The notes under the pieces are model-generated. The model was not told the DNA's origin. It worked only from the letters and a program-made list of their open reading frames with translations, and did not search any database. DNA of 35,231 nucleotides from Candidatus Hydrogenedentota bacterium. Its GTDB lineage: Bacteria > Hydrogenedentota > Hydrogenedentia > Hydrogenedentales > CAIZGN01. The stretch is taken from assembly GCA_903932505.1 (NCBI GenBank), contig CAIZGN010000511.1, forward strand, positions 1 through 35,231. The letters are read 5' to 3'. Every line of letters starts with the position of its first letter. Within the stretch, counting starts at the first letter, position 1. Positions 3,865 to 29,718 of this stretch are shown here, in pieces. The position numbers and the translations under genes were made by a program.

Positions 3865-3939
3865 CGCATCCTTCCCATTGATCGAGTGCAATTGTAACAT
3901 TCAGTCCAGAAACGGACAAATCGCCTGCGGCTTGGTGGC

Positions 3940-5527: not shown

Positions 5528-5598
5528 GTTTCACATCCTCTCCGAATGTATCATAGAAATCAGGGGGCCCCATTTCAACTTTTGCGGCCGGGCGTAAT

Positions 5599-7185
5599 TC
5601 ACTTTCCATTGCGCACCACTATGCCCTTTGGGTTCTCGGCGTCGACCTGAAATATCTGGGGGCCTTGCGGCGGGGAAAGATAGGTTTCGTCCTTCAACGC
5701 CGGATAATCCAATCCGAGAAACTTGCGCAGGATAGCTCGGCAGGTATTGACGGGGGTGATCTCAGGATACAATACCCCTTCATAGGCGCGGTCGGGAAAA
5801 TACACCGCATTCAATATGGCGGTCCGGTCGCGAATCCAATCTTCCCATGTTCCGGTCCAGGGCCGCTCCGGGATGTCGTGGACGGTTTGCAAAGTGGTGC
5901 GGGGCCCGTGGTCGCCTTGGATGATAATGATCGAATTGGGATTACGCGCAAGAATGGCGGCCGTTACTTCGGGAATGCGCTTGCCAAGATATTCGCTTAC
6001 TGTCCGCCAGCCTTCCTTGTAGGGAAGCGGTTCGTCGAGTATCCGGCCATTGGCGGTGTAGTTGTGTGGTATATGGGGCGCGAGACAATGGGCGAGCACA
6101 TACATGGGTTTGGTGCTGCGCTCCAAGGACGACAATTGCTCGAGGATGAAGGGCACGCGAAAATGCCAACGTCCATTTTCCATTCGATTCACCACCGAAC
6201 GCCATGGGGTCATATCCGCCAGCGTCTTTTGGTAATGGGTCAATATGGACGCTCTCGGCCGGATCAGGCGATCGGCCTGCGCCGTCTCTGTCGCGGTGAC
6301 ACCCCAGTCGATGAGTGCCACGATTTCATAACCCTGCTGTTTCATCAGTGGCATCAGGGTGTTTTCTCTGATTAGGGTAAATAGTCCCGGGAGATCGGCA
6401 TCCAGACCTTCCGGTGCCATCGACAAATCGAGGTATTGCATGTTGAGTGTCGCGGACAGCGACAACAGTGTCTTCTGATAATTCGAGTGGCTCTGATCCG
6501 CGACGTAGAAGCCCTGTTTTCGTAAGGCATCGAGAAAAGGCGTATCATCGTAGCCAAAATAGTCGCGCAGGTAATCGGCGCGCGGAAACGAGTCGAAGAC
6601 CAGGAAATAGATGTCTGGCAGTGAAGCCGTGTCTTTGCGGGGTGGCGATGCGGCTACCTTAGTTGTGGTCGCTGGATGCGAGGTTTGCTGTTGCAGGAAC
6701 ATTCCGTGCGCCAGACCGGCGAGCAACGCGCCGACCACTGCGGCCGAACCCACATTCAGCGCTGTGGTAATGGGAGCCGCCAACGCCCACTGAACTCGAC
6801 GCAAGCGCCAGAGTACCGTCAAACCAAGGGCAATGGTCAACGCGCAAAGCAAACCCAATTTGAGTGAACCCACCATGGAGGAGAAGGCAAAGTGACTGCG
6901 GACGGTGTTCAGTATGAATCCGTACCCATAGAACGGAATCCAGAACAAGCTAATCGTCAGGCCGCGTAGGAGGCGGTCGGGCAGAATCGGCCATAATGCG
7001 AGCCACAGAAACATCGCCGTACCCAACATGATGACGATTGGAAGTATCGATTCGTAGGTCTGCACCCATCCATAGTTTGAAGCCTGTACGGATAGTACCG
7101 GGAAAATCGCCCACAGAAAGGGATGAAATACCCACGGTTGCCGCGTTGCGGGACTGGAAGGCTTTGATTCCATACTAAAGTTCAT
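5599..7185 (-). CDS. Membrane sulfatase-like / LTA-synthase-like hydrolase or transferase
   Basis: N-terminal TM helices, then LPDIYFLVFDSFPRADYLRDYFGYDDTPFLDALRKQGFYVADQSHSNYQKTLLSLSATLNMQYLD and SIIIIQGDHGPR. Start chosen at MNFSMESK so that it does not overlap the upstream gene. Confidence 0.75.
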   Translation of the reverse strand: MNFSMESKPSSPATRQPWVFHPFLWAIFPVLSVQASNYGWVQTYESILPIVIMLGTAMFLWLALWPILPDRLLRGLTISLFWIPFYGYGFILNTVRSHFAFSSMVGSLKLGLLCALTIALGLTVLWRLRRVQWALAAPITTALNVGSAAVVGALLAGLAHGMFLQQQTSHPATTTKVAASPPRKDTASLPDIYFLVFDSFPRADYLRDYFGYDDTPFLDALRKQGFYVADQSHSNYQKTLLSLSATLNMQYLDLSMAPEGLDADLPGLFTLIRENTLMPLMKQQGYEIVALIDWGVTATETAQADRLIRPRASILTHYQKTLADMTPWRSVVNRMENGRWHFRVPFILEQLSSLERSTKPMYVLAHCLAPHIPHNYTANGRILDEPLPYKEGWRTVSEYLGKRIPEVTAAILARNPNSIIIIQGDHGPRTTLQTVHDIPERPWTGTWEDWIRDRTAILNAVYFPDRAYEGVLYPEITPVNTCRAILRKFLGLDYPALKDETYLSPPQGPQIFQVDAENPKGIVVRNGK

Positions 7186-7193
7186 TTGGATTC

Positions 7194-9695: not shown

Positions 9696-11285
9696 TTAGG
9701 AAAGCTGTTTGCGTGCGTCACCCGCCACGCGAACCTTGAATCCCAGCTCCATACACGCCGCGACCATTTCCTGAAGGACATCGCCGTAGCCGATGACGAT
9801 GTGGTTGGACATGTGCGTGGCCATGAGTTCGTTGCGGTCGTAGCCGGGGATATGGACGTTGGCAATGGGCCATACCGGGGTGGTCTTGTCCAGACGCTCC
9901 TGCACTTCCGCTTCGGGCATGTCGAGCACTTCGCCGGTACCGCAGTCCATGCCCAGCACGCCATCCGCTTCCCAAGCGCGCGCCCAGGTAATGGTTCCGG
10001 GTTTGGAAATTCCTGCGCAGGTGCCACCACCGAGCGGGAAATACATGGCCGGCTGCCGGTAGATTTTGGTCTTCTTCCATCCGCCGAAGTGGGCCGGGGG
10101 GGCGGCACCACTGATCAGGAAGACCCACACAAACTTGCCATCGTATTCGCGGCCCCAACGTACATCGTGCAGGGTCGTTTCCGAGGGCATGCCCTTGCGC
10201 TCGAAGATTTCGTGCATGATGACCTGCGGAAGCCCGGCACCCATGTCGCCTTCGTTGAAGTGGGGGATGGCGCGACCCTTGGCCACGATTTGCTTTGTGT
10301 CGGGATCTTTCACCGGAGGCCGATCCTCGTTATTGAGCATGCCTTCCACAAGGTCGGAGGCAGGAACGCAGCGAACGAGGCCGTATTGGTAGGGAATGCC
10401 GATGGAACTCAGCCCATAACGTTCGACCATGCGGGCCGCTGCCGAGTACATCTTCATCTGGGAAAGAACCTGGGCGTGGGTGAGTTGCTTGCCGGGATCG
10501 GGGCCCCAGTCAAACCATGCACCCTTTTTGACGAGCCAATCAAGATGCGATTGCGCTTCTTCGTCGCTGACGAGGCTCATTTCAGCCACGAGGTCGGACT
10601 GATTGAGGTATTCAACGGGCATGCCGACCGCACCGAGCTTGGCCGGATCCATGACTGCATTGATCATGCCCATGCAGCCGGGATCGAGCTGACCCATGAT
10701 ACGGCGTTCGCGCTTGATGTCGGCAGCCAACTGCTTGCCGAAGGCCTTCGCTCTATTGGAAAGTTTGAGGTTCTCCGCATCCGAAACGTGCGAGGTGCTG
10801 TGCTTGATCTTCCCGGTATTGCACCATTCCTCGAGCTTCTTCATGAAATACTCGTCTTTGGTGAAATGATCGGTCCACAGACGAGAGTGCGCAACGTCGA
10901 GCCGCGCGAGGGTGCCGGAATGATTGAGCAGTGCCACCAAGCCCGGCCAGGTTCCGTCAAAATTTGCGAGCAGCAGCTTCGGCCCTTTGTGGGTTTGAAG
11001 CGGCCCGGACACGTGGTGCGAATAGGCCCAGCAACTCAGAACGACCACCACCGGCGCGTTCGGGTCGATTTCGGAGAGTGCCTTGGCCCCTTGGCTTTGC
11101 CGGGTGATGAATCCGTGCCTGCGCTTTTCGTCGTACTTCGGGAAGACCTTCGTCTCGAATCCCAGTTTCTTGAATGCCCGTTGCACTTCCTTCAACGTGC
11201 GATCCTGCATGGCCCAACACGCTTGCCCCGCAGATTCGCGGAAGTCGCCATTGGAGAGGAGGTAAATCGTATCGCCTTTTTTCAT
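9696..11285 (-). CDS. L-fucose/L-arabinose isomerase-like protein
   Basis: 529 aa: DTIYLLSNGDFRESAGQACW...PVVVVLSCWAYSHHVSGPLQ...LANFDGTWPGLVALLNHSGTLARL. Sugar isomerase-like fold by pattern recognition. Confidence 0.65.
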   Translation of the reverse strand: MKKGDTIYLLSNGDFRESAGQACWAMQDRTLKEVQRAFKKLGFETKVFPKYDEKRRHGFITRQSQGAKALSEIDPNAPVVVVLSCWAYSHHVSGPLQTHKGPKLLLANFDGTWPGLVALLNHSGTLARLDVAHSRLWTDHFTKDEYFMKKLEEWCNTGKIKHSTSHVSDAENLKLSNRAKAFGKQLAADIKRERRIMGQLDPGCMGMINAVMDPAKLGAVGMPVEYLNQSDLVAEMSLVSDEEAQSHLDWLVKKGAWFDWGPDPGKQLTHAQVLSQMKMYSAAARMVERYGLSSIGIPYQYGLVRCVPASDLVEGMLNNEDRPPVKDPDTKQIVAKGRAIPHFNEGDMGAGLPQVIMHEIFERKGMPSETTLHDVRWGREYDGKFVWVFLISGAAPPAHFGGWKKTKIYRQPAMYFPLGGGTCAGISKPGTITWARAWEADGVLGMDCGTGEVLDMPEAEVQERLDKTTPVWPIANVHIPGYDRNELMATHMSNHIVIGYGDVLQEMVAACMELGFKVRVAGDARKQLS

Positions 11286-13393: not shown

Positions 13394-14425
13394 ATGCTAA
13401 CAACAAAACTAAGCGGTGCCGACATAAAACGTGCGCATCGCCCACTGCACAAGGAACTTTTGGGTTCCAGCGACAGTATGAAGGCCGTACGCGACCTCAT
13501 TGACCGGGTGGCTCCATCGACCTTGACGGTGCTTATCACAGGGGAAACGGGTACGGGTAAAGATCTGGTGGCTCGCTTGCTGCACGATAAATCGGAACGC
13601 AGTCGTGGCCCCTATGTGAAGGTCAATTGTCCGGCCATTCAAGAGACTTTGCTCGAAAGTGAACTCTTTGGCTATGAAAAGGGTGCTTTTACCAGCGCAA
13701 TGAGTACAACTCCTGGTCGTCTGGAGTCCGCCCATGAGGGGACGCTTTTTCTGGACGAAATTTCCGAAGCGTCGCTTGTGGTGCAGGGTAAATTAATGAT
13801 GACCATGGAGGGTGAGCCTTTCATGCGGGTGGGGGGCGTCCATCCTATCCATTCGGACGTTCGAATCGTCGCAGCCACCAACATCCCATTGGAAGAGCTC
13901 GTTGCGCGTAAAAAGATGACGGAAGAGACGCTATTTCGCCTGGCCGAGGCGATTATTCATCTTCCTCCACTCCGGGAACGGTGCGAGGATATTCCGCTGC
14001 TTGCGGAACATTTTAATCACAGCTTTTGTGTTCAACAAGAGCGAACGTATGAACCACTCCCGGATTCCGTGGTTGAGCAAATGCAAGAGCTGGAGTGGGA
14101 GGGTAATGTTCGCGAATTGGCCGGTTGTGTCCGGGAATATCTCGTATCCGGTTCTTCGGAAACGCTGAAAGGGGTGCGCCGTTCGGAAATGTTGGAAGAG
14201 CCGTTCGGCACCACGCCCGGTCGCAAGGATCGTTCGCAGCCGACGCGGACGTTTATTCCGTTAAAAGAAGCCGCGCGCTTGGCCGTCGAAGAAACAGAGC
14301 GTCGCTTGATTCAAGAAGCGCTAGAGTATACGCTGTGGAACAGGAGAAAGGCAGCCAAGCTGCTTGGTGTAAGCTATAGTTCACTTCTCAGGAGGATCGA
14401 AGCGTACCAAATCGGTAAGGTTTGA
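13394..14425 (+). CDS. Sigma-54-dependent transcriptional activator (AAA+ and Fis-type HTH, no receiver domain)
   Basis: GETGTGKDLVARLLH (Walker A), ELFGYEKGAFTSA, GTLFLDEI (Walker B), RLAEAIIHLPPLRERCEDIPLLAEHF, C-terminal HTH NRRKAAKLLGVSYSSLLRRIEAY. RBS AAGGAG 7 nt before ATG. Confidence 0.95.
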   Translation: MLTTKLSGADIKRAHRPLHKELLGSSDSMKAVRDLIDRVAPSTLTVLITGETGTGKDLVARLLHDKSERSRGPYVKVNCPAIQETLLESELFGYEKGAFTSAMSTTPGRLESAHEGTLFLDEISEASLVVQGKLMMTMEGEPFMRVGGVHPIHSDVRIVAATNIPLEELVARKKMTEETLFRLAEAIIHLPPLRERCEDIPLLAEHFNHSFCVQQERTYEPLPDSVVEQMQELEWEGNVRELAGCVREYLVSGSSETLKGVRRSEMLEEPFGTTPGRKDRSQPTRTFIPLKEAARLAVEETERRLIQEALEYTLWNRRKAAKLLGVSYSSLLRRIEAYQIGKV

Positions 14426-14468
14426 TGAGGTAACGGTTCCTGAACCGGCTGGAAAGGCAATAAGAATA

Positions 14469-15695
14469 ATGAACAGGTTGTTGAGTCCCTTTGCGATGCT
14501 ACTGTGTGCGGTGGTTTTTGTTGGGTTGGGTGGCTGCGCCACCGATTCGTCGACAAAAAAAGTGGTTACGGGTCTAGAGGAGGCAATCACAGTTCCCAGT
14601 GATACCACGGGTCTAGCGCAGGCCTCGGCGGCGGCCCCCGCAGCGGATGCCCCTGCTACCGTTCAATCGGCTCCCATTACCGAACCGGAGAAGTACAGGA
14701 TTGGCGCGGGCGATATGCTGCGATTCCAGTCCTTCAACGATGAATCCCTGAGCGGGGAAGTTCGGGTGCGCTATGACGGCTATATTTCCCTGCCACTCAT
14801 TCAAGACTTCATGGTTAAGGGTTTGACCCGCGATGAGGCCGAGGCGCAGTTGAAGGAGGCCTACAAGAAGGAGTTTATTGAGCCGCGCCTTACACTTTCC
14901 ATTCGAGATTCACGCAGCAAGTCTTACTATGTAATGGGCGATGTAACGCGTCCGGAAGAGTTCGTGTATGACCGTCCGGTGACCCTACTGGATGCCATCA
15001 ACACGGCGGGTGGCGTGCGTCAGCGCCAACAGAATTCTGTGTCCTTCGTGAGTCAGCAGTCTCAATTGACCAAGGCCTTTATCATTCGCCATCAAGAAGG
15101 CAAGCGCATCGTGACCAAGTATGACCTTCGTGGCTTTGATAAGGGTGGCGAGCACCTTACGGACACGATGGTTATGCCGGGTGACATCATTTATGTGCCC
15201 GAGTCCGTGCAGCTGGCGTATGTGCTTGGGCAGGTGGCCCGGCCGAGCGCCTATCCGGTTTCGGAAGGAATGGGCCTGCTTGAGTTGATGACCGTTGCTG
15301 GTGGACCGAATGAAGTCACGGGGAAACTCGGGGACGTCATATTGATTCGTCAAATCAGCGAGAAAGAGACCCGTGTGGGCCGGGTTAACCTGCGTGCCGC
15401 GATGAAGAATGGTATCAAGGTTGAAATTCAGTCGGGGGACATCATTTACGTGCAGCGCAAGGGGCTGGTGAAGCTTTCCCAGTTCGTGTCGCAGATTCAG
15501 AGCGTTGTGGCACCCACGATGAGCATGTACATGCAGGCGTATGACGCTTATTATACGGATCGTCGCTATCAGCAGATGATGTCCAGTTCCGCCTCCTCCT
15601 CCGGCGGCACCCTGCTGAGCCTTGAACAGACCCTTCGCAATTTGAGCGCACTCACCACAACGACAACTACCACGCCGACGGTCACCGCGCCGTGA
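14469..15695 (+). CDS. Polysaccharide export lipoprotein, Wza-like (polysaccharide export N-terminal domain and SLBB)
   Basis: Lipobox VGLGGC; YRIGAGDMLRFQSFNDESLSGEVRVRYDGYISLPLIQDFMVKGLTRDEAEAQL, then SLBB-like YVMGDVTRPEEFVYDRPVTLLDAINTAGG and YVLGQVARPSAYPVSEGMGLLELMTVAGG. Confidence 0.93.
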   Translation: MNRLLSPFAMLLCAVVFVGLGGCATDSSTKKVVTGLEEAITVPSDTTGLAQASAAAPAADAPATVQSAPITEPEKYRIGAGDMLRFQSFNDESLSGEVRVRYDGYISLPLIQDFMVKGLTRDEAEAQLKEAYKKEFIEPRLTLSIRDSRSKSYYVMGDVTRPEEFVYDRPVTLLDAINTAGGVRQRQQNSVSFVSQQSQLTKAFIIRHQEGKRIVTKYDLRGFDKGGEHLTDTMVMPGDIIYVPESVQLAYVLGQVARPSAYPVSEGMGLLELMTVAGGPNEVTGKLGDVILIRQISEKETRVGRVNLRAAMKNGIKVEIQSGDIIYVQRKGLVKLSQFVSQIQSVVAPTMSMYMQAYDAYYTDRRYQQMMSSSASSSGGTLLSLEQTLRNLSALTTTTTTTPTVTAP

Positions 15696-15727
15696 TTGTT
15701 TTTCTGGGGATTTGACCAGGAGATTTC

Positions 15728-18073
15728 ATGACCACCGAATTTTCGAGAATGAGCCAACCCTCCATGGAGGAAACCACTGCGGCTCCAGCGATGGATTTCC
15801 GCATCGACTTTAAGCGGCTGATTTTTGTTCGGCTTCCGTTGATGATTTTGGTTGCCGCTGTAATTGCCGTTCCGTCTACGCTTGCCGCGTGGTTTCTTGT
15901 GCCGTTGGAGTATGAGGCGGGAGCCACGCTGGAATTTCAAGCGGCCCGCCCCAAGATCATGGACTCCGGTTCACAAGATCGTCAGGGTGTGTCGTATGAA
16001 ATGTACGTGAACACCCAGATGGCCCTGATGGCCGGGGACACGATTCTGCAGAACGTGCTTCAGGATCCCTCGGTGCGATCCCTGCCGGTGATTGCAAAGG
16101 AGTCTGACCCGGTTGAATACCTCAAAGGGAAAATCCAGGTTTCCCGCATCGGCCGAAACAGCGAGCTGGTTCGTGTAAGCTATCGATCGGTAAGCCGGGA
16201 TGGCGCAAAAGAAATCATCAAGCGACTTATCAGTTCGTATCTGGAATACGCCCTTCGCGGGGAGGCGGCCTCTGGCGGGCAACGCATGGAGGCCCTTTTG
16301 AAGGCGCGGGACAGTTACCAGCAGGAAATGGATCGCCAGCTTGGGGAAAAGACTAAGATATCCACCGATCAGGAGGCTCCCTCGGCAAGTGCTGCGGTGC
16401 TGGACACCGCAGGGTTAAACATTCAACGGGAAGCCTTGGTGCGGGCGGAAGAGTCCGTGATTGCATTTGTCGGGCAAGCCGCTAAGCAACAGGAAAAGAA
16501 CGCACAACTGAAAGCCTTGGAAGAGAAACTGAAAAAGAGCCCCGACGGCTCAATCTATGAATTTAGCATTGAGGAAGCCGTGAGGAACGATTCAAAGGTA
16601 ATGTCGGCCCGTGACCAGTATCTTAAGAGGGACTCTGAAGTTGCCGCGCTGGAGACGCAATTAACCCCGGAATCCAATCGTCTCAAGGCCGTAAAAGCGG
16701 ATCGTGACGCGCTCAAGAAGCAGGAGAGCGAGGCCGAAAGCAACGCTCGCCGTGAGGTTCTGAGCACGCTGATTTCTCAGTCTGAAAAGGAGCTGGCGGC
16801 CACGACCAAAGATGTTGAGGATCAGAAGGCGCGTGTGGAGTCCATACGCACCCGAATTGCGGAGTTGGAAGCGCAATTCAAGGATCGTTCCAATAAGGCG
16901 GTAACAACCCAGGCGGGTCTCGACGAAATCAACATGCGCCTTGAGGAGTCCCAAAGGCATCTCTCGGAAGTTCGCCAGGAAATAGCCGCAGTTTCGATTG
17001 AAAGTTCCGCCCCGGCTCGGGTGCAGGTGGCCGCTCAGGCGGATGTACCGAATGATCCCGATTATGGTAGGCGCATCAAATTTGTGTTTCTTGCGGTGAT
17101 GGCGTCGATTGCCCTTGGCGCAGGAACTGGAATACTGCGTGAATTAGCGGAAAAGCGTGTTCAGTCCCCACAAGACGTTTCCTCGATTACCCGGCTTCCC
17201 GTGCTGGCGTCCATTCCCCACGCCAAGGAAGACAGCCTCATAGAAACGGTACGGGCGCATCTGGTGACGTCGGAATTTCCGTATTCGCCGATGGCTGATG
17301 CCTATCGGCGGATTCTTGCACGGATCGTTTACCCACCCGATAGCGCCGTAGAGATCAACTCGCTCCTTGTTGCCAGTCCAACCCGGGGCGACGGAAAAAC
17401 CTCGGTGGCCTGCAATCTTGCCATCATGCTCGCCCGCGCAAACCGTCGCGTACTCTTGATTGACACCTGCGGCTGGGAACCCGCGATAGAGGCTTGCTTT
17501 GGCCTTTCTCGCGCTGCCGGTCTTTCTGAAATCCTGTACCAGGACGTGGAACCCTTGGCCCTCACCCGGCCCACAGAACTGGTCAACTTGGAGATTCTCG
17601 GCCCTGGTCTGCACGGACGAGAACTTTGCGGAAAGCTGGCATCTCGTGCGATGATGTCCCTGTTGGAACACGTTGAGCGCGAGTTTGATCATGTTATTAT
17701 CGATTCGATGGCCGCCCTGTTGATGTCCGATGTAAAACTTATCGCACCCGTTGTGGATGGTGTCTTGCTGGTTGTGGGAACTGAAGTGGCAAGCCGTGGC
17801 ATGGTTCGACGTTGTCTTGCCGAATTGGAACAGGTGAATGCCGATATACTCGGCGTTGTTCTAAATGGCGTACGCCCGACACGTGGCGGCTATATGCGCA
17901 GAAACATGGATATGTATTACCGCTATTCTGATAACGCTTCAGATGCGGTCTTGGATGCTCAAAGTGACGATTTGCCGGATATTCGCCTTGCGGACGAGGA
18001 GATGGGGGAGGAGGATGCCGAACCCATGATTCTTCTTTCGGTTGAAGACCGCGATGATGAAAAGACCCTGTAG
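15728..18073 (+). CDS. Wzc-like polysaccharide co-polymerase with BY-kinase-like ATPase domain
   Basis: N-terminal Wzz-like TM, long coiled coil, then SLLVASPTRGDGKTSVACNLAIMLARANRRVLLIDTCGWEP and FDHVIIDSMAALLMSDVKLIAPVVDGVLLVVG. C-terminal MDMYYRYSD. Confidence 0.9.
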   Translation: MTTEFSRMSQPSMEETTAAPAMDFRIDFKRLIFVRLPLMILVAAVIAVPSTLAAWFLVPLEYEAGATLEFQAARPKIMDSGSQDRQGVSYEMYVNTQMALMAGDTILQNVLQDPSVRSLPVIAKESDPVEYLKGKIQVSRIGRNSELVRVSYRSVSRDGAKEIIKRLISSYLEYALRGEAASGGQRMEALLKARDSYQQEMDRQLGEKTKISTDQEAPSASAAVLDTAGLNIQREALVRAEESVIAFVGQAAKQQEKNAQLKALEEKLKKSPDGSIYEFSIEEAVRNDSKVMSARDQYLKRDSEVAALETQLTPESNRLKAVKADRDALKKQESEAESNARREVLSTLISQSEKELAATTKDVEDQKARVESIRTRIAELEAQFKDRSNKAVTTQAGLDEINMRLEESQRHLSEVRQEIAAVSIESSAPARVQVAAQADVPNDPDYGRRIKFVFLAVMASIALGAGTGILRELAEKRVQSPQDVSSITRLPVLASIPHAKEDSLIETVRAHLVTSEFPYSPMADAYRRILARIVYPPDSAVEINSLLVASPTRGDGKTSVACNLAIMLARANRRVLLIDTCGWEPAIEACFGLSRAAGLSEILYQDVEPLALTRPTELVNLEILGPGLHGRELCGKLASRAMMSLLEHVEREFDHVIIDSMAALLMSDVKLIAPVVDGVLLVVGTEVASRGMVRRCLAELEQVNADILGVVLNGVRPTRGGYMRRNMDMYYRYSDNASDAVLDAQSDDLPDIRLADEEMGEEDAEPMILLSVEDRDDEKTL

Positions 18074-18169
18074 AGGGACTTAATGGCCGGGAAGAACGCT
18101 CGTCTTGTTGTGTTTAGGGGGCGGACGAATCGTTTTATCCGCCTAAGAACAGGAAGGACTTAGGATTTC

Positions 18170-21100
18170 ATGCCCAAGAAACTCATTATCGCCATATTGG
18201 TGCTTTGCGTGTTGGCTCTTCTCGGGGGAATCGGCGGAATTGCCGGGTATTTCTGGCTGAAGGAGCATCGCACCCAGCAGGCACTCACCCAAGGTGACGC
18301 TTCGTTTGCCAAAGGTGATTTCAATGACGCACGACGGCAGTATGCCACCTATCTGCGTGTTTACCGGCAAGATTTGGATGTTCTCACCAAGTTCGCTGAT
18401 TCTTGCGCCAAGGTAAAAGAGAATCGTCCACGAATTCTGCGCGACATAATGCTGTCCTACAATCAGATTGCGCTTAAGCGCGTGGGTGATGTGGATGCCG
18501 TTAAGAAGCTTATTGACCATTGTGAGCGTACCCATTCGTGGACGGACTTAGAATATTACTCAGATTACTACGGTAAACAATTACCCGACTTGGAGTGGTT
18601 GCACTATGAACACGCGCTGGCGCTTGATCGTCTTAACCGGTCACAGGAGGCGATGAACGCCTTTGATGCGCTTATCAAGGAAAAGACACTGCATGCGGAT
18701 GTGTATGGGCGTCAGGCGCGTTTACTGACTGACTTGGGCTTGGGAACCCGCGCTGAAGAGCTTTTTGATGAGGTCTTCAAGCAGAAGCCGGAGGATCCGG
18801 CTCTTCTGGCGCAACGTGCGCTGTATCGTCTTACGCAAAACGATATTGTCCGTGCGCAAGAGGATATTGACAAATCGCTTTCCCTGGCACCGGAACTTGG
18901 CACTACGCAGATGGTTGCGGCACGTATCGCTCTTCGCCAGACCCAATGGGACAAGGCTATCCAATACGCGCAGGGCGCACTTGACCGGGGGGAGGAACCC
19001 CAGCAGGCGTATGTTCTGTTGATTTCGGCTCATCAGGAACAATCAGGATTTGCGGCTGCCCTGAAGGTGATGGAATCCATGGATCCCATGGTGCGTCTGG
19101 ATAGCCCCGACCTCTTGCTGGTGCACCACGAGTTGCTTCTCGGTTTGAGCCAAATGGATAAAGCGAAAGCCGTGCGACTTGAGTTCACCGTAGCGTATCC
19201 CAACAACCCACAGTTTGGGGAATACATGCAGGCCCGGGAGATGCTCGCCTCTGGAGAGCCTGCCGCCGCAGCGGATAAGCTCGTGACTATCTCCGAGAGT
19301 CTGCCAAGCTTTCGACAAGCACGCTACTATTTGGCCGTTGCCTTGATCCAGTCCTTTCAACAGGAAAGGGCGAAGACCGTTCTTGAACTGTTTATTCGAA
19401 CGTTTCCTGGGGATGTGCATGCGCAGGCTTTGTACGATCGGGAGTTTGGCGGCGTTCGAAAAGACGCGACCACGGTTGCCGCATCCGCCAAAGAACTGCT
19501 TGCCAAGGAGGATTCCACCGCTGCGGCTTTGGTTCAATCGGCGCAGTCCCTCTTCGATGCCCAGCAATCTTTGGATAAGGCGGCCCCCGCGCTTGGAACG
19601 GTACAAACTCTCTTGGATAAGGCACTGAAGCAGGATCCCAAGTACCCCAATACCTATCTGGTGTACGCCGATTTTCATTTGCGCCGGGGTGATCCTGCGG
19701 AGGCCAAAGCTTTTTTGGAGCGTGGCGTACAAGCGTGCGGCACCCTCGATGGCTCGGAGATGGTTCAGGCTTGGATTGCCTTGGCGGAGAACAACGAGCA
19801 GGGCGCTTTGGACGCTTTCCAGACCCAGCTTAACCAAGTCGACCTGACCTCCAACACGGTGCGCCGTTGGGCAAATTCCTTCGCCGCGCGGGGGCATATC
19901 GAAACGGCGCTCGCCTTGCTTGCCTTGGGTTCAAAGAAATTGCCGGCCGAAAAAGCCGCAGATTTGTTCGCCGACCCGGTTTCCCTGTGTATTCGGTTTG
20001 GTGATTATGACCGTGCGCAAAAAGAACTCGAGACATTGGAAGCGCAAGCGGTTCCAAACGGGGGGACTGTCGACCCACGAATTCTTTCCTCCAAAGAACA
20101 ACTAGCCCAGCTGCTTGCCCGTTCCTCAACGCCGCGACAAACCGCCGAGGCCAAGAAGCTGGTCGAGCAGCTGTTGCAGGTCGCAAGTGGCGAGAAGCGA
20201 TATAAACTTTTGATGGCGGAGGTGCTATCGCGTCAGACACCCCCGGACTTTGCTGGGAGTAAGACGATTCTCGATCAGGCACTCGAAGTCAACGCGAATG
20301 ATGTTGCCGTCCTGCAGGCGCAGGCGAGTATTGCCATGCTTCAGAATGATGTCTCGAAGGCTCTTGATTTTGCGAGGCATGCCGCTTCTGTGGCTCCGCA
20401 GGATTCGGTGGTCGGCATGGGGTTGGCCAAAATCCAATTAGCGGGACAGCAATATGGCGAGGCTCAGGCGACCCTTGAGCAGGTCTTGATGACTACCCCC
20501 AATGACCCGCAGGCCTTGGAGCTGCTTATAACCGCATACATGGCCAACGGTCGACTCGATCAGGCTAACAGCATAATTCAGCGCATGGAAAAGGTCGCCA
20601 ATAGTGACCCGGGCATGGCTTGGCGTGTTTCCCTATTGAAAGGACGACTCTCGGCCGCGCGTGGGGAAAACTTGGGGAACGTAGAAGCCATGCTCCGTAC
20701 CCGGTATGTCGCCAATCCGAACGACCTTGAATCCCTGCGTTCGTTGGCGGAAGTGGTTGCTCGTCAAGGGCGGGATGCAGAAGCCGAACAACTTCTGCAG
20801 GGTTTTGCGGACAGCCACCCGAATTCAGAGGACGCTTTGGTTCTGTTGGGCCAGTATTTTCTGGCAAAAAATACCCCGGAAGCAAGCACTCGCGCTTCGG
20901 TGGCCTTTACCAAGGCGCTTGTGGCCCATCCAGATTACGCATCCGCATTACGCGGGCTTATGGACCTTTACTTGCGCTCCAATAGTCTGGCTCAAGTGCT
21001 ACAGCTTTGCGAACGCTATTTGTCCATACATCCCGCAACGCCTGAAATCTTATACAAGAAGGCCCTCTTGCAGTTGCAGATGAATAAAGACCGTGACGGT

Positions 21101-21418
21101 GCTATGGCCACGATTGAACAGGCCATAGCGCTAAGTAAAGAGCCGGAGTATTTGTATTTTCGCGGCATGCTGCAGTTGGACGCAGGGAAGAATCAGGAGG
21201 CTTTGACGGATTTCCAAGAAGCGGGAAAGATACGTGATGTCAATTCTGCGGACTTGGATATGGGTATGGCTGAGGCTTATGCGGCGTTGAATGACCCTGA
21301 ACCGTCTGCCCGCTATCTGGATTCCGCCAAGCGTAAACTGGATAATGGTGCCCCTGGTAACAAGGAGCGCTTGGATCGGTTGCTCAAACGAATCGCCCAA
21401 GAAGGTGAGGGTAAATGA
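18170..21418 (+). CDS. Large membrane-anchored TPR protein (PrsT-like, exosortase-locus associated)
   Basis: 1082 aa, N-terminal TM LIIAILVLCVLALLGGIGGIAGYFWL, numerous TPR-like repeats (e.g. GDFNDARRQYATYLRVY, KEPEYLYFRGMLQLDAGKNQEALTDFQEA). Directly precedes exosortase. Confidence 0.85.
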   Translation: MPKKLIIAILVLCVLALLGGIGGIAGYFWLKEHRTQQALTQGDASFAKGDFNDARRQYATYLRVYRQDLDVLTKFADSCAKVKENRPRILRDIMLSYNQIALKRVGDVDAVKKLIDHCERTHSWTDLEYYSDYYGKQLPDLEWLHYEHALALDRLNRSQEAMNAFDALIKEKTLHADVYGRQARLLTDLGLGTRAEELFDEVFKQKPEDPALLAQRALYRLTQNDIVRAQEDIDKSLSLAPELGTTQMVAARIALRQTQWDKAIQYAQGALDRGEEPQQAYVLLISAHQEQSGFAAALKVMESMDPMVRLDSPDLLLVHHELLLGLSQMDKAKAVRLEFTVAYPNNPQFGEYMQAREMLASGEPAAAADKLVTISESLPSFRQARYYLAVALIQSFQQERAKTVLELFIRTFPGDVHAQALYDREFGGVRKDATTVAASAKELLAKEDSTAAALVQSAQSLFDAQQSLDKAAPALGTVQTLLDKALKQDPKYPNTYLVYADFHLRRGDPAEAKAFLERGVQACGTLDGSEMVQAWIALAENNEQGALDAFQTQLNQVDLTSNTVRRWANSFAARGHIETALALLALGSKKLPAEKAADLFADPVSLCIRFGDYDRAQKELETLEAQAVPNGGTVDPRILSSKEQLAQLLARSSTPRQTAEAKKLVEQLLQVASGEKRYKLLMAEVLSRQTPPDFAGSKTILDQALEVNANDVAVLQAQASIAMLQNDVSKALDFARHAASVAPQDSVVGMGLAKIQLAGQQYGEAQATLEQVLMTTPNDPQALELLITAYMANGRLDQANSIIQRMEKVANSDPGMAWRVSLLKGRLSAARGENLGNVEAMLRTRYVANPNDLESLRSLAEVVARQGRDAEAEQLLQGFADSHPNSEDALVLLGQYFLAKNTPEASTRASVAFTKALVAHPDYASALRGLMDLYLRSNSLAQVLQLCERYLSIHPATPEILYKKALLQLQMNKDRDGAMATIEQAIALSKEPEYLYFRGMLQLDAGKNQEALTDFQEAGKIRDVNSADLDMGMAEAYAALNDPEPSARYLDSAKRKLDNGAPGNKERLDRLLKRIAQEGEGK

Positions 21419-22317
21419 CCGAAGAAACGACCAAAGAGGCATCCACGCCGGTGGGGGCGTCTGCCAGCCCTGGCTTGGCTGTCGCAGGCAGCTTAGTCAT
21501 GACGGGCCTGCTCGCGCTCATTTACTGGGTGCCGGTTCAACAAATGGTGAGCATTTGGGGACTTTCGGACTCCTACTATTCGCACGGATACCTGATTGCG
21601 CCCATTAGCCTTTTCCTTGTGGGGCTCAAGTGGAAGGTCTTGCGAGAGATCCCCATAGCGCACTCTTGGCTGGGGTATCCCCTGATTTTGATATCCGTTT
21701 TCCTGCTGATTATCGGCGCATTCTTTGGGTTTTCCATATTCGAACATTTTTCGATGCCCCTGATGATTGCCGGCGTGTTGCTGGCTTTGCTGGGAACCCG
21801 ATGGATGTCCTACCTATGGTTTCCCGTACTGTTCCTCTATTTCATGGTTCCCATCCCTCCCTCTATCACCCAAAGCGTGGCCCTGACGTTAAAATTGGCC
21901 GCCACGAGCGGAGCTGTTTTCTTGGCCCGCCTCATGACGCTTCCCATGATTCACGATGGTTCTTTTGTTCTTTTTGGCAATGACAAGTTGCTCATTGGTA
22001 ATGTGTGCGGAGGCTTGCGGTCGCTGATTTCCATGCTGGCCTTGGGTTTTTTGATGTCGTATTTCAGCCGATGCCATTGGTGGGCGCGCTTGCTTATTGT
22101 GGGGCTCGCAGGGCCGATAGCCATCGCATCCAACATTGTCCGTATTTTTTTCTTGTGTGTTGTGGCGTATTTTTACGGCAGCCAGAACGCCACCGGTATC
22201 GTGCATGACGTGTCCGGGTTTATCATGTTCGGACTGGCTTTCGGGCTGTTTATTGGCGTGGAATCCTTTCTTCGCAAGTGGGCGCATCAGCCTGAAGCGG
22301 AAGGAACCGTGTCATGA
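21415..22317 (+). CDS. Exosortase family transmembrane transpeptidase
   Basis: About 8 TM helices; catalytic-type Cys NVCGGLRSLISML, Arg SNIVRIFFLC, His IVHDVSGFIMFG. Followed by EpsI. ATGA overlap with the upstream gene. Confidence 0.92.
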   Translation: MTEETTKEASTPVGASASPGLAVAGSLVMTGLLALIYWVPVQQMVSIWGLSDSYYSHGYLIAPISLFLVGLKWKVLREIPIAHSWLGYPLILISVFLLIIGAFFGFSIFEHFSMPLMIAGVLLALLGTRWMSYLWFPVLFLYFMVPIPPSITQSVALTLKLAATSGAVFLARLMTLPMIHDGSFVLFGNDKLLIGNVCGGLRSLISMLALGFLMSYFSRCHWWARLLIVGLAGPIAIASNIVRIFFLCVVAYFYGSQNATGIVHDVSGFIMFGLAFGLFIGVESFLRKWAHQPEAEGTVS

Positions 22318-22940
22318 AGCACTTTATTGTTATTGCGATCCTCCTTTCGGGTACCGCGTACTGGCACGACTCCATCCAGAATGCGCACAGGCTTGCCGCT
22401 GAAAACGCGCCTGATTCCGGCTTGTCTGCTCTTCCCACGAAGATAGGTCAGTATACCCAGTGGGGAAAAGACCAAGAGACACCGGAGGATGTAAAGACGC
22501 TGCTTGAGACTAGTTCGATATTGGCTCGCACTTATCGCGGGGCTTCAGGACGTCCTATTCAAGTGACCATCGTGTATGCGGGGACGACGCGTCGAAGTCT
22601 CCATTTCCCCGAGGTGTGCTTGGTTGGCCAGGGTTGGGAAATTCGTGAGCAATCCACGCAGGATATCAGCTTTTTATTTTCCGCGACCCGTCTTGTGCTT
22701 GTGAAAGCCCAACGAAATGACGCCATCTTGTATTGGTTCAAGACCGGGGATCATTTCACGGGCAATTTCTTCGAGAACTCTTGGGTCTGGGCAAAGCAGC
22801 AGTTCGTTGGTGGGCGTGCCACCTCTGCCATGATTCGCATCAGCACAGCAATTGGCCCGGATGGGAAAGAACCTGCTTTCTTGGCCTTGGAAGATTTTGC
22901 AGAGAAACTGTCGCCCGCGTTGTTGGACTGCATGAACTAG
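22314..22940 (+). CDS. epsI: EpsI family protein (exosortase-associated)
   Basis: Signal-like N-terminus; VTIVYAGTTRRSLHFPEVCLVGQGWEI...LVLVKAQRNDAILYWFKTGDHFTGNF matches EpsI/DUF3485. ATGA overlap with exosortase. Confidence 0.88.
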   Translation: MKHFIVIAILLSGTAYWHDSIQNAHRLAAENAPDSGLSALPTKIGQYTQWGKDQETPEDVKTLLETSSILARTYRGASGRPIQVTIVYAGTTRRSLHFPEVCLVGQGWEIREQSTQDISFLFSATRLVLVKAQRNDAILYWFKTGDHFTGNFFENSWVWAKQQFVGGRATSAMIRISTAIGPDGKEPAFLALEDFAEKLSPALLDCMN

Positions 22941-23000
22941 CGGTCTTTAGACGCGAGTGTTTTGAAGGAAGAAAACCCCCGATAGGGACGGAGAGACCAC

Positions 23001-24227
23001 ATGAAATACCATCGCATGATTCTTGCGTGTCTGCTTTTTGCCTCGCTTGCCGTTACGGGATGTAGCGGTCGCAAGAGCGAACAATACCGCAGTGAGGGGG
23101 ACACCCTGTTCCGTTTGGCAAAATATGAGGATGCCTTGGGCGCCTATCGTCGTTCACAAGAAATGAATCCTAAGAATGTCCAAGCTACACTTGGAATCGG
23201 GCAATGCCTTGAAGCTCAGAAGAAATTGGAGGAGGCGCTAAAGGAATTTCAGGCGGCCATTACGACGGATCCGACCTTTGAGCCTGCCTACCGGGAAGCA
23301 TCCCATATATTGGTTCAGACGGGCCGGGGGGACGAGGCGTTGACGCTTGCGGATCAGCTCGCCAAGACGGATGCTGTTGCCGGTGCCGTGTTGGGATCCT
23401 CCATCCTGCTCGACGGGAAAAAGGCTGCGGAGGCGATTGCCCGTTTGGAGAAGTTGAGTGCCGAGCAGCAGACCAACCCCTCCGTGCAACTTCAGCTCGC
23501 CGCTGGTTATAAGGAAGCTGGCAATCTGGCGAAGGCCGAAGAGCTGGTGCGAGCCTACCTCGTGCAGGCCGCCAATCCCGCCGCATCCGCAGCCGCACAA
23601 TTGCTGCTGGTTGATCTTTGTGTCGCACAGAAAAAAGGGGATCAGATGGTCGCGGAGTTTCAGGCGCGTCTTGCCAAAGACGCCAATGACACATCCGCAG
23701 AACTGGGACTCACGGAAACCCTGATGCGCATCGGTCGTATTGATGACGCTGAGCCCTATGCCAAGAAACTTTATGACCGTCAGCCGGAATCTGGTTGGGG
23801 TAATTACCTGTTGGGTACGTGTCTTCTTGCAAAAAAGAAATACACGGAAGCGCTGCCGTATCTTGAAAGAGCGGCGTCGGTGTTGCCGCAGCAGCCGCAA
23901 GTGGCACGAAATCTTGCAGCAGCACGAAGTGGCGATAAGGGTGTCCCCGCCCCGCCGGCGGCATCCCAGCAGACGGCGACCGCTTCGACTACACCCCAGC
24001 CTCCTGTTCCCACGGCTCTGCAACCCCTGCCGAATGATTGGCGCAGCTTGTGGAAGCAGGCAGCCTTCAAGCCTTTGCTTGAGCACCGCAATGATTTCCT
24101 TGCCACGAATGAGCCCAATGTCGCCGAGACGCTCGCTTTGGCGGCCTTTTTCGTGAAGGACGAGGCGGTTCTAAGTGAATTGGGCCCCCAAGATTCCCCC
24201 AGCGTCCCCGTTGAATGGCTATTTTAA
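23001..24227 (+). CDS. TPR-repeat lipoprotein, likely N-terminal part of a frameshifted or coupled longer protein
   Basis: Lipobox LAVTGC; TPR-like YRSEGDTLFRLAKYEDALGAYRRSQEMNPKNVQATLGIGQCLEAQKKLEEALKEFQAAI. Overlaps next ORF in +1 frame by 53 nt. Confidence 0.85.
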   Translation: MKYHRMILACLLFASLAVTGCSGRKSEQYRSEGDTLFRLAKYEDALGAYRRSQEMNPKNVQATLGIGQCLEAQKKLEEALKEFQAAITTDPTFEPAYREASHILVQTGRGDEALTLADQLAKTDAVAGAVLGSSILLDGKKAAEAIARLEKLSAEQQTNPSVQLQLAAGYKEAGNLAKAEELVRAYLVQAANPAASAAAQLLLVDLCVAQKKGDQMVAEFQARLAKDANDTSAELGLTETLMRIGRIDDAEPYAKKLYDRQPESGWGNYLLGTCLLAKKKYTEALPYLERAASVLPQQPQVARNLAAARSGDKGVPAPPAASQQTATASTTPQPPVPTALQPLPNDWRSLWKQAAFKPLLEHRNDFLATNEPNVAETLALAAFFVKDEAVLSELGPQDSPSVPVEWLF

Positions 24228-25896
24228 GGCGATCCAGACGCGCCAGTCCGCACCTTTTCTTGAAGAAATGAAAGGATGGACAGAAACCGATGAAGAGCGA
24301 TCCGTGCTGCGTGCCAATGCGTTTGGCGTTGGGTTGGCCCTCTTGGGGGCCAGATTTAATGCCATGCACACCTTGACAAGTGCAGCCACCCAGTATCCTG
24401 CCTATGGGGTTACTTACTACAATTTGGCGCAGGTACTTCGTGCCTCTGGAGCTCCCGCCGTTGGCGCCCGGGCGTTGCAAAAACTGCTGCCACAAGCCAT
24501 CAGTAATGTCGAGCTGCACGGGATGGTGTACGGCCTGCTTCGGGAGGGCAGCAAGTATGCAGAAGCCCAAAATACCGCCGAGATGACCTACAGTTTGTTC
24601 CCCGGAAATGAAACCGCCTGTTTGAATCTTTCCCAAGCCTATCTCGACAATCAGGAGTCTAAGATGGCAGATGCGGTGCTTGTGCGTGCCGAACAGGAAA
24701 CGCCGGGTTCTCCGCAGATCCTGCTTGCCCTTGCCCGCCTCCGCATCTATGACAATCAGCCCGAAAAAGCGCTTGAGCTTATTGCCAGCGTTCCTGAGGG
24801 CCCCGAGGTACATGATGCACGGCTCTTTATTAACGTTTTCGCACAAGCCGGGCTGAAAAACTGGGCCTCTGTTTTGGAGCAGACCCCCGCTACGATTGAT
24901 GTGACATCGGGAACGGCGTTGAGGCTGATTCGCTCTGCCGCTTTGACCGCCCAAGGAAACACGGCTGATGTAAAGGCCCTGCTCGATCCAATAACGCAGA
25001 TCGTTCCTGAGGTGGAAATTGCGATCGGAGCTTTGGGTGGTACCGCTCCCTCGCGCCCCGCTGAGGCGGAATTGTGCCAGGCACTGCAAGCCAAGCCTGA
25101 AACGCTGGTTCAATACCTGTACGCCTTGTCGTGCCTGTCGGTGCCGGTGTACGGGCCTGGTGTATCCGCACTGCAAAGCGCATATGACGGAATTGGCGGC
25201 AATCCGGTTCTTGCAGGATATATCCTTCGCGTGATGGCCAAGTCTGATCCAGCCGCCAATCGTGAAGAAAGCGCGAAGACGCTTGCCGAAAAGCACGCTG
25301 ATTCCGCCGACGTCCAATTGGGTATTGCAGAAATCTATGGTTCTCTGAAAAAGAGCGACCTTGAATTGAAGGCGTTGGAACAAGCGGTTTCCCTGTCTCC
25401 GGATTTTGCAGAAGCGTGGCGGCGAGAGGGTGGTTTATTTGAAGATCAGGGGAATCTCGACGGTGCAATCGCTGCGTATGAGAAACTCCTTCAATTGCTT
25501 CCCGATGATTTGGCCGGAAACAACAATCTCGCGTATTGCCTGATGCAGGCGAAGAAGGATATGGACAGGGCATTGGCGTGCGCGCAACATGCGGCGGCCC
25601 TTCAACCGAAATCTCCGCAGGTGCTGCACACGTTGGGCGCGATTCAACTTCAGCGCAACGAGCTTGAAGAAAGCGCGAAGAACCTGAAGATGGCACTTGC
25701 CTTGCGCCCTGCCGACCCCACACTTGTTCTGGATTACGGGAAACTTCTCATGGCCCAAGGACAAAAAGATGAGGGATTGAAACATATTGCAATGTCTGTT
25801 TTGTATGGGAAACAATTTGACGTGCCTTTCCCCCGTAAGGACGAGGCCGATTTGATCCTTAAGGAAAACGGTCAGGCCGCTACACCGGGAACATGA
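24175..25896 (+). CDS. TPR-repeat protein, probable C-terminal continuation of 23001-24227
   Basis: GTG start, no signal peptide. TPR motifs such as DNQPEKALELIASV, GNLDGAIAAYEKLLQLLPDDLAGNNNLAYCL. Lies in +1 frame relative to the preceding lipoprotein ORF. Confidence 0.8.
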   Translation: MNWAPKIPPASPLNGYFKAIQTRQSAPFLEEMKGWTETDEERSVLRANAFGVGLALLGARFNAMHTLTSAATQYPAYGVTYYNLAQVLRASGAPAVGARALQKLLPQAISNVELHGMVYGLLREGSKYAEAQNTAEMTYSLFPGNETACLNLSQAYLDNQESKMADAVLVRAEQETPGSPQILLALARLRIYDNQPEKALELIASVPEGPEVHDARLFINVFAQAGLKNWASVLEQTPATIDVTSGTALRLIRSAALTAQGNTADVKALLDPITQIVPEVEIAIGALGGTAPSRPAEAELCQALQAKPETLVQYLYALSCLSVPVYGPGVSALQSAYDGIGGNPVLAGYILRVMAKSDPAANREESAKTLAEKHADSADVQLGIAEIYGSLKKSDLELKALEQAVSLSPDFAEAWRREGGLFEDQGNLDGAIAAYEKLLQLLPDDLAGNNNLAYCLMQAKKDMDRALACAQHAAALQPKSPQVLHTLGAIQLQRNELEESAKNLKMALALRPADPTLVLDYGKLLMAQGQKDEGLKHIAMSVLYGKQFDVPFPRKDEADLILKENGQAATPGT

Positions 25897-27766: not shown

Positions 27767-29164
27767 TTATTCGTCCTGCGGCTTCTCGTTGAGTGCCGTG
27801 GAGCGGATTCCCAGAAATTCATCCAGCATCGCTTCCGTCATCTCTGCATCCAGACGGAGTTCCTCCAGGGCAGCCCCGTAATCCGCAAACAAGCCCTGAC
27901 TTTCCTCCAGCGATCCGCCCGGCGCGCAGGCCATGACATTGGCCAAGGAAACAATCGCCACATACTGCTTGGCGGTGGTGGCCAATTCCGGTGTGTGATG
28001 GAAGCGGATGGGCTCGGCAATTTCACTCGGAAGATTCCAGTATTGGGCCAGACTGTACCCGGCTTCCGTGTGGGAAAGGCCAATCACACGGGATTCTTCG
28101 GCCACCAGAGCGCGCCCCCACAGGGGTTCGGGCATAAGATCCGCATAGTTGGGTTGCAGCTCCACCAAGACCACGCGCCCGATGTCGTGGAGGAGTCCGG
28201 CGGAGAATACACCCGAAAGACGGCGCAGACCGGCGGCTTTGGCCACAATGCGCGCGGCGGCCGCACTGCACATGGATTCGAGCCAGAACGCCTTGTAGTC
28301 GAAATGTTTGAGCTTGTTGGCGAGATCCGCCACGGCCACCGACAGGACAATGCCATAGGTTTCATGCAGACCCAGAAGCGACACCGCGAGCGTGAGGTCA
28401 TTGATGCGATTGGGGAAGCCGTAGGCGGCGGAATTGGCCACGCTGAGCACTTTTGCGGCCACCGGCGGATCCAGCGTCAGCACGCCCACAACCTCATTCA
28501 CCGCACTGGCCGGATCTTCCATGATTTCACGCACCCGCGAGACGGTTTCCGGCAATGCGGGCAAAGAGCCCACCTGACGAATGAGATGGGCAATATGTCC
28601 GAGTTTGGTTCCTGTTTCCAGGCGTTGTGGATCAAGCGGCGGTGCCACTTCAATGGAAGCAGAGGGCGAATCTCCGCTACGGAGTCCGTAGTGGGTATTG
28701 AGCGCGGTTTCAATGTTGTTCCGGTCGCAAATTACGATGCGCGGGGTAAGCCCGGTGGCTTTCTCCAGCGCAGTCAAGGCGGCTTCGTCGAGCGGAGACG
28801 CGGAACCCAAGAGTAGAGTCCCGGCGGTACGATCCATGGGAACCACCCCCAGATTGTGCGCGGTGGTACGGTCGAGAAGTCCAAGCAGGCCCGGATCAAT
28901 GTCGAGGTGTGAGGGATCAACCTCGGTCTTTCCGGCACTTGACACAAAAAACTCAACGAGTGTTTCTGCGGAGAGATGACCGAGGGATATAAGGCAATCG
29001 ACCAAGGTGCCGCCACGCTCTTTGCGAAGGGCTATTGCAGCATCTAATTCTTTTTGCGTGATCACACCGGCTGCGACCAAGGAACGACTAACCTGGCGGT
29101 CGGTCGCAATTTTCTGCATCTCCCGGTCAGAGACGGTGTTGTCAGTGGCGGAATTCGGAACCAT
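27767..29164 (-). CDS. MshEN/GspE-N-like and HDOD domain protein
   Basis: N-terminal SRSLVAAGVITQKELDAAIALRKERGGTLVDCLISLGHLSAETLVEFF; then HDOD-type LPALPETVSRVREIMEDPASAVNEVVGVLTLDPPVAAKVLSVANSAAYGFPNRINDLTLAVSLLG...AGLLHDIGRVVL. GGAAAGG upstream of ATG at 29164. Confidence 0.85.
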   Translation of the reverse strand: MVPNSATDNTVSDREMQKIATDRQVSRSLVAAGVITQKELDAAIALRKERGGTLVDCLISLGHLSAETLVEFFVSSAGKTEVDPSHLDIDPGLLGLLDRTTAHNLGVVPMDRTAGTLLLGSASPLDEAALTALEKATGLTPRIVICDRNNIETALNTHYGLRSGDSPSASIEVAPPLDPQRLETGTKLGHIAHLIRQVGSLPALPETVSRVREIMEDPASAVNEVVGVLTLDPPVAAKVLSVANSAAYGFPNRINDLTLAVSLLGLHETYGIVLSVAVADLANKLKHFDYKAFWLESMCSAAAARIVAKAAGLRRLSGVFSAGLLHDIGRVVLVELQPNYADLMPEPLWGRALVAEESRVIGLSHTEAGYSLAQYWNLPSEIAEPIRFHHTPELATTAKQYVAIVSLANVMACAPGGSLEESQGLFADYGAALEELRLDAEMTEAMLDEFLGIRSTALNEKPQDE

Positions 29165-29292
29165 ACAAGTACCAACCTTTCCATGGGGGGCGCATGCCTG
29201 AACCAAGGTATTAGCTATTTCCGCAGCCCGTTTGGGGCGACGAAGCCACGGCCGCTTCCTCGCGTGCCGCAGACGCAAGTTCTGGTCTACGG

Positions 29293-29319
29293 TCATCTAC
29301 CGGTGGACACTTGCGTTTA
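29293..29319 (-). promoter_or_regulatory. Weak candidate sigma-28-like promoter for the HDOD gene
   Basis: On the minus strand: TAAA-N15-GTAGATGA (consensus TAAA-N15-GCCGATAA); -10 matches 5/8. Confidence 0.25.
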
Positions 29320-29377: not shown

Positions 29378-29404
29378 TAAAGCTATAAAGAAATCTGCCG
29401 ATAA
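29378..29404 (+). promoter_or_regulatory. Near-consensus sigma-28 (FliA/SigD) promoter
   Basis: TAAAGCTA-N11-GCCGATAA. TAAA at 29378-29381 and GCCGATAA at 29397-29404 with exactly 15 nt between; the -10 is a full match. Confidence 0.8.
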
Positions 29405-29457
29405 AAATAATACAATTGAAGGCAATTGGACCAACCCGACGCAGAAAGGAGGCTGCC

Positions 29458-29655
29458 ATGGACGGATTGACTGCTGTGGCCAGCGGCGTCGGGGCCGGTG
29501 TGAGCCAGGTTCGTATTCAGCGACAGGCTTCGCAACCCCAGATGATGGAACAAACGGGGAAAACGAAGGATGTCAACACCGCAGTACTGCGCCTCATAAC
29601 GCAGGCATTGTCGGCGTCTGGAGCGGCAGGACACGACCTCGACGTGCTGGCCTAG
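29458..29655 (+). CDS. Small YjfB-like putative motility protein
   Basis: 65 aa: MDGLTAVASGVGAGVSQVRIQRQASQPQMMEQTGKTKDVNTAVLRLITQALSASGAAGHDLDVLA; short MD..., Q-rich and ...G-(N/D)-LDV-A end as in YjfB family. AAAGGAGG RBS, sigma-28-type promoter upstream, own terminator. Confidence 0.6.
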   Translation: MDGLTAVASGVGAGVSQVRIQRQASQPQMMEQTGKTKDVNTAVLRLITQALSASGAAGHDLDVLA

Positions 29656-29671
29656 CCTCAAAAACTCCTTT

Positions 29672-29718
29672 GGCGGGGGTAGATTGCAAGGATGCGATCT
29701 GCCCCTGCCCCTCGTTTT
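29672..29718 (+). terminator. Rho-independent terminator of the YjfB-like gene
   Basis: 16-bp stem GGCGGGGGTAGATTGC/GCGATCTGCCCCTGCC (three G-U wobbles in plus-strand RNA), 6-nt loop AAGGAT, followed by CGTTTTTC. Confidence 0.85.

Follow-up and report, generated by a model that had tools for sequence, protein, structure and literature searches.

The hok mRNA is known to fold back on itself. Metastable folds have been described for the hok/AapA type I toxin mRNAs (PMC6733600), and in the icaR mRNA of Staphylococcus aureus a UCCCC motif of the 3' UTR pairs with the Shine-Dalgarno sequence (SD) (PMC3868564). The flaA mRNA of Campylobacter jejuni is both a target and a sponge of CsrA-FliW, and an apical hexaloop containing CANGGANG has been described for CsrA/RsmE (PMC4894983). 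The ANGGAN hexaloop is the high-affinity form for CsrA, and short stems were favoured in SELEX (PMC7652899). YjfB is an uncharacterised small protein of a flagellar sub-module in which it occurs alongside sigma-28 (PMC10802407).

We analysed a locus that resembles these systems in part. It lies in a stretch of 35,231 nucleotides (the window), taken from contig C511 of a 740-contig, 5.86-Mb Candidatus Hydrogenedentota MAG. Like flaA, it would give a late flagellar mRNA with an ANGGAN/CANGGANG hexaloop in a genome that has csrA and fliW. However, the CsrA sites of flaA lie in two hairpins of the 5' leader, whereas here the consensus hexaloop belongs to the 3' terminator and the open reading frame (ORF) encodes a 65-aa YjfB-like protein. 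As in icaR, the mRNA carries an anti-SD motif in its own 3' UTR, but the SD pairing at this locus is a prediction, and the locus also has a helix from coding end to coding start and a CsrA-type loop. As in the hok/AapA mRNAs, the ORF is small and the 5' fold is perhaps transient before a long-range 3' pairing; in contrast to them, no hydrophobic toxin or antisense antitoxin was seen here and both helices use coding sequence. The CsrB/RsmZ sponge sRNAs likewise display GGA in hairpin loops, but they are non-coding and have many such hairpins, whereas this locus has one consensus hairpin and a conserved translated ORF. Finally, the product resembles YjfB (PF14070, a putative motility protein) in length, sequence pattern, sigma-28 link and kinship via intermediates; the window gene's class differs in being monocistronic and in carrying RNA elements that are missing from its class B paralogues. 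We consider it somewhat probable that the locus makes a sigma-28 flagellar mRNA under CsrA/FliW control via a bistable fold, with translation set by the fold and by CsrA.

A previous sequence-only reading had proposed a self-contained sigma-28 unit here, and re-reading the sequence located its promoter, ribosome-binding site, 65-aa ORF and terminator where it had placed them. The sigma-28 (FliA) promoter TAAAGCTA-N11-GCCGATAA occupies 29378-29404 of the + strand, on which all features of the unit lie, with its boxes at 29378-29385 and 29397-29404. The SD AAAGGAGG is at 29445-29452, and the ORF (P0001, 29458-29655) runs from the ATG at 29458 to the TAG stop at 29653-29655. The intrinsic terminator hairpin (29672-29709) has a stem of 16-17 bp and is followed by TCGTTTTT and a U-rich tail to ~29720. 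The predicted transcript extends from ~29411 to ~29720, about 310 nt. We scored the promoter pattern TAA[AG]G-N13-16-CCGA[ATC] at 25-130 nt 5' of the ATG. It was conserved in 25 of the 28 orthologous (class A) loci and in none of 16 class B paralogues, was kept in 6/6 related loci without the RNA elements, and had a background of 0.9% of same-size windows. The three class A misses were a TTAAGA variant, a site outside the pattern or scored window, and a contig end. The spacing from the -10 box to the ATG was 47-61 nt in the loci. The sigma-28 motif alone was not enriched genome-wide (7 sites vs 6 for the reversed control); thus, the promoter is convincing because it is conserved, and the genome-wide count alone does not carry it.

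The earlier reading also depended on the genome encoding flagella. FliA is encoded (251.8 bits in the profile search, cut-off 189.6), as are FlgM, FliN, FliW and CsrA. The fliA gene is adjoined by a FliN-like (FliN/SpoA) gene, the FlgM gene sits behind another sigma-28-like promoter, and fliW-csrA form a tandem pair, with CsrA (90.7 bits) on C354 behind fliW. With these genes the organism has a sigma-28 system, and the earlier reading survives its main refuting condition, a genome lacking FliA. Judged from the conserved promoter and FliA in the genome, membership of the locus in the sigma-28 regulon is supported. Another sigma-28-like promoter in the genome precedes a 436-aa EF-hand-like protein (L044, 1501-2887), and a further one precedes a response-regulator-domain protein and then a MotA/ExbB-like ORF (L049, 1082-2606).

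The isolation of the unit from other flagellar genes was rightly noted: by tblastn, no window neighbour lies near any orthologue, and no conserved gene neighbourhood was found in the stretches compared. The divergent upstream neighbour (27767-29296, - strand), ~80 nt from the promoter, encodes an HDOD protein with an MshEN domain and is likewise not near the orthologues. The MshEN domain is known for cyclic-di-GMP binding, so this neighbour is possibly a signalling protein. Elsewhere in the window, a sigma-54-type activator, an SLBB/Poly_export protein, a ParA-like ATPase and several TPR proteins stand in a row that resembles an exopolysaccharide export cluster (13394-25896, + strand). Two sulfatase genes (1726-7233, - strand) and a fucose-isomerase C-terminal domain protein (9696-11285) suggest the use of sulfated sugars.

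The protein had been labelled YjfB-like, with a PF14070 HMM search as the check. P0001 had no match to this model even at E = 1, and so fell short of the 27-bit gathering cut-off; nor did it have a direct match in Pfam and NCBIfam. The kinship held through intermediates. PF14070 was matched (E<=1) by 5 of 24 aligned relatives, the best at 9e-8, and class B and L066 matched it at 18.6-32.4 bits, which places a sigma-28-linked relative above the cut-off (32.4 bits). In addition, hhalign joined the class A and class B paralogue profiles over their full length (97.6%, E 2.9e-12). On this profile evidence P0001 is homologous to YjfB-type proteins. Because P0001 itself is unmatched but the intermediates match, we call it YjfB-like and not a tested PF14070 member. 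Its AlphaFold2 model (pLDDT 56.8, pTM 0.26) was too poor for a fold search and showed one helix, at 36-53.

When 60 relatives were searched with the 65 residues, many families of the order proved to have orthologues, at about 35-55% identity over the full length, and the alignment search found at least one relative of the gene in 41 of 68 genomes. Gene and FliA occurred together in 37 genomes, FliA only in 8, the gene only in 4 and neither in 19 (Fisher p 5e-7), indicating that gene presence tracks FliA; several genomes that break this pattern are incomplete. The window gene belongs to class A, a set of orthologues that is spread over about 30 genomes of the order and bears the sigma-28 promoter. 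Class B was also found in many genomes of the order and frequently has a TATAAT-like box instead of the sigma-28 site; the copy in the same genome (G000:C391:11273-11452; L001, L079) has neither a sigma-28 site nor the RNA elements. A search of IMG/VR by a conserved 22-mer gave no related records, and tblastn against plasmids gave none.

The first RNA element is a helix around the start region (P1). The 5' UTR strand CCCGACGC (29435-29442) pairs with codons 10-12, GCGUCGGG (29486-29493), enclosing the SD and the AUG. Codons 10-12 are part of a strand, M (GGCCAGCGGCGTCGGGG, codons 7-13, 29478-29494), that can pair in P1 or in the helix P2 described below. Between P1 and an inner hairpin the SD lies on the bulged side; the hairpin pairs GCTG (29452-29455) with CAGC (29481-29484) and is less conserved (79% of cells paired). 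The class A upstream regions have CCCGACG in common just 5' of the SD, and nearly all of them have Val-Gly-Ala codons that read GUCGGGGCC, complementary to CCCGACG. Compensated variants were CCCGAUG/CAUCGGG (L017), CCCAAUGC/GCGUUGGG (L024-L027) and CCCGACA/UGUCGGG (L033). The last pair shows three Watson-Crick pair types, and at column 27/99 of alignment A3 G-C is replaced by A-U. In A3 (27 loci) 95.4% of P1 cells were paired, and 95-97% over the alignments; since the A3 and A4 loci were picked for carrying the element or the loop (27 of about 34 sigma-28-linked loci), the P1 and loop percentages are conditional on that choice. Changes on both sides occurred in 4/8 pairs. The covariation score was 0.287 against 0.177 in shuffles (0/500 reached it) and at most 0.134 when the strands were slid (A3, A7); the data are related MAGs of one order and the alignments lean to conserved blocks, and because the sequences are related, these and the following shuffle counts are not probabilities. 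P1 emerged unprompted from RNAalifold for A3 and again for the full-length alignment A7. Folded by itself, the 5' fragment took the P1 form in 23/25 loci.

The codons of P1 are also constrained. Wherever orthologues have these residues, Gly12 is GGG and Ala13 is GCC (26/26 in one codon count, 25/25 in another); elsewhere in the same genes, glycine is GGG in ~15% of cases and alanine is GCC in about a quarter. This indicates that the P1 coding stretch is held at the nucleotide level. When synonymous codons were redrawn in 25 loci, the real P1 duplex was stronger than the mean (mean z -1.8). Taken together, a conserved, covarying P1 helix around the start region is demonstrated computationally. 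A GGA in the 5' UTR (29428-29430), 20 nt from the GGA of the SD, is a weak candidate for a second CsrA site. About two thirds of the orthologues have such a further GGA 16-24 nt 5' of the SD GGA, the spacing sought being about 18 nt, and in the rest it is absent or elsewhere; the SD itself contains GGA, as most SDs do.

The second helix, P2, pairs the last codons of the ORF (CCUCGACGUGCUGGCC) with the codons that P1 uses. Its 3' strand is CCTCGACGTGCTGGCC (codons 60-65, 29637-29652), the alternative partner of M, and its core pairs GCGUCGGGG with CCUCGACGU. Some families extend the core by GGCCAGC/GCUGGCC, and the other set, on our reading, by RGGC/GCCU. Over 16 pairs, 85.8% of the cells were paired; slid partners gave at most 44.8%. 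Two-sided changes were seen in 8/16 pairs (9 two-sided cells), and covariation was modest (0.175 vs 0.146 shuffled). A change from D to N in L025 (GAC to AAC) brings back Watson-Crick pairing with GUU. The codon-by-codon comparison gave a second constrained block at codons 59-64 (CAC GAC CTC GAC GTG CTG), with Leu61 as CTC in 24/25 and Asp60 as GAC in 23/23. CTC has a background of 5% in the rest of the same genes, but 8 of 18 class B leucines at the equivalent place are CTC, so part of the Leu61 bias is ordinary usage. By contrast, within two AT-rich genomes (G013, G019) the class A codons are CTC GAT GTG, and the class B codons at that place are TTG/TTA GAT GTA/GTG. On synonymous redraw, each of the 25 loci had a real P2 duplex stronger than the mean (mean z -2.3 and -2.7). 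At the computational level, both coding blocks are therefore shown to be synonymously constrained, and P2 as an alternative helix is well supported by the alignments, short of proof.

P1 and P2 are mutually exclusive because both need the same strand. When full transcripts were forced into one or the other, the mean gap was 2.2 +/- 3.3 kcal/mol, of about -125. The P2 state additionally pairs the SD with the 3' UTR in seven loci, whose SD is mostly free in P1.

The 3' UTR carries an anti-SD motif, ACTCCTTT (29664-29671), complementary to the SD. In 21/25 loci CTCC lay between the stop and the hairpin, whereas dinucleotide shuffles gave 5.0 +/- 1.9; the form of the motif is CUCC(UUU), and exact CTCCTT was present in 12/25. 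SD/anti-SD pairing was tried as the global minimum of unconstrained folds and was found in few orthologues, which is why we infer it and go no further. The enrichment before the hairpin (21/25 vs 5) also fits processing of the 3' UTR into a sigma-28-dependent sRNA, whose CUCCUUU would pair with the SDs of other mRNAs and whose hairpin would be a stable 3' end; E. coli has UTR-derived sRNAs that depend on sigma-28 (PMC10578931). We consider this very unlikely, as it leaves the CsrA-consensus loop, P1 and P2 unexplained, and the loss of the CUCC motif together with P1 suggests a partner in cis.

Under the preferred reading of CsrA control on a bistable fold, the terminator would matter as well. 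Its stem changes on both sides in 12/13 pairs (score 0.706 vs 0.295 shuffled and at most 0.299 slid). Its loop is a CsrA-type hexaloop, C-AAGGAT-G in the window (loop 29688-29693), and C-ANGGAN-G with CANGGANG in 25/28 orthologues. L032 and L039, two of the three loci that lack it, also have decayed 5' elements; the third (L091) is at a contig end and of doubtful class. The conservation of stem and CsrA-consensus loop is thus evident computationally. The stem is long, unlike the short stems favoured in SELEX (PMC7652899), and CsrA is predicted by analogy to bind the hexaloop. CsrA was present in 45/68 genomes; of the 25 that bear the hexaloop, 22 encode it. Two of the three loop-bearing genomes without a CsrA match are incomplete (60% and 83%); the third, G031 (94% complete), carries the element with a loop stem that is interrupted directly under the closing pair. 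The literature collection searched gave no paper treating Hydrogenedentota together with CsrA.

No other part of the transcript is as constant as the loop, as would be expected if the locus were a CsrA sponge or dual-function RNA, in which an abundant sigma-28 transcript titrates CsrA by its terminator loop (and the 5' GGA sites) after hook completion and the protein is secondary. The Campylobacter flaA mRNA is a proven sigma-28-class CsrA target and sponge (PMC4894983). However, a single consensus hairpin is unlike CsrB/RsmZ, the codon-level constraint around the SD and AUG suggests control in cis, and the protein sequence is conserved too. We regard this explanation as rather unlikely.

The 5' and 3' elements occur together. 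In a third small group of relatives (L028, L029, L035, L066, L080, L084), the promoter was retained (6/6), and P1, the CUCC motif and the CsrA-type loop were lost together; L084 is a partial exception, with ACGGAT in a wider loop. The group offers a natural comparison set for the role of the RNA elements. Class B has neither element. That element-free sigma-28-driven relatives survive (L028, L035, L066, L080, L084) is what an ordinary sigma-28-dependent YjfB gene would predict, its RNA features serving mRNA stability and termination only, and a terminator is expected in any case. A stable mRNA, however, needs no covariation in a start-region helix, no invariant loop letters and no fixed synonymous codons, which makes this explanation unlikely, somewhat more so than the sponge. 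With conserved folds that can pair in two exclusive ways and a CsrA-type hairpin at its end, the mRNA is probably a regulatory device in its own right.

Among the 68 genomes, models of the 5' element (R1) and the 3' element (R2) each found the locus once per genome; R1 gave no credible other, and every R2 hit at E below 1e-4 was this locus. Extra R1 matches in G022 (at an rmlA-like start) and G039 were dismissed as chance, since no such ORF is there. Rfam had no gathering match in the window, and allowing E up to 10 gave nothing above chance level.

In the preferred mechanism, the 5' part of the fresh transcript would fold as P1, with the CCCGACGC/GCGUCGGG helix closing the domain, the SD bulged out and the AUG inside or beside the inner stem. 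Once the 3' end is made, the last codons would invade and take the switch strand to form P2. This would free the 5' strand of P1 and bring the anti-SD CUCCUUU of the 3' UTR to the SD. A CsrA dimer would bind with high affinity at the terminator hexaloop C-ANGGAN-G and less tightly at the SD region, keeping the mRNA in an untranslated state. FliW, freed by flagellin export, would then remove CsrA and release the mRNA. The sign of control, which could be the reverse, the role of FliW and the function of the protein are all putative in this scheme. More tentatively, and at somewhat less than even confidence, the locus may represent an undescribed RNA family that uses its own codons as both switch halves (5' UTR/codons 10-12 vs codons 60-65/codons 7-13), coupled via the CsrA-type terminator loop and the anti-SD to FliW-CsrA, and perhaps also acting as a CsrA sponge.

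With a length of about 310 nt, this compact element lends itself to tests in vitro and in laboratory strains, for a phylum that is without genetics. If the mechanism is true, the terminator hairpin would also be a CsrA site, and the mRNA would switch between two folds built of its own codons, tying the state of flagellar assembly to translation. The uncharacterised YjfB family would then be placed in a regulatory context, that of CsrA/FliW, and given a role that can be tested.
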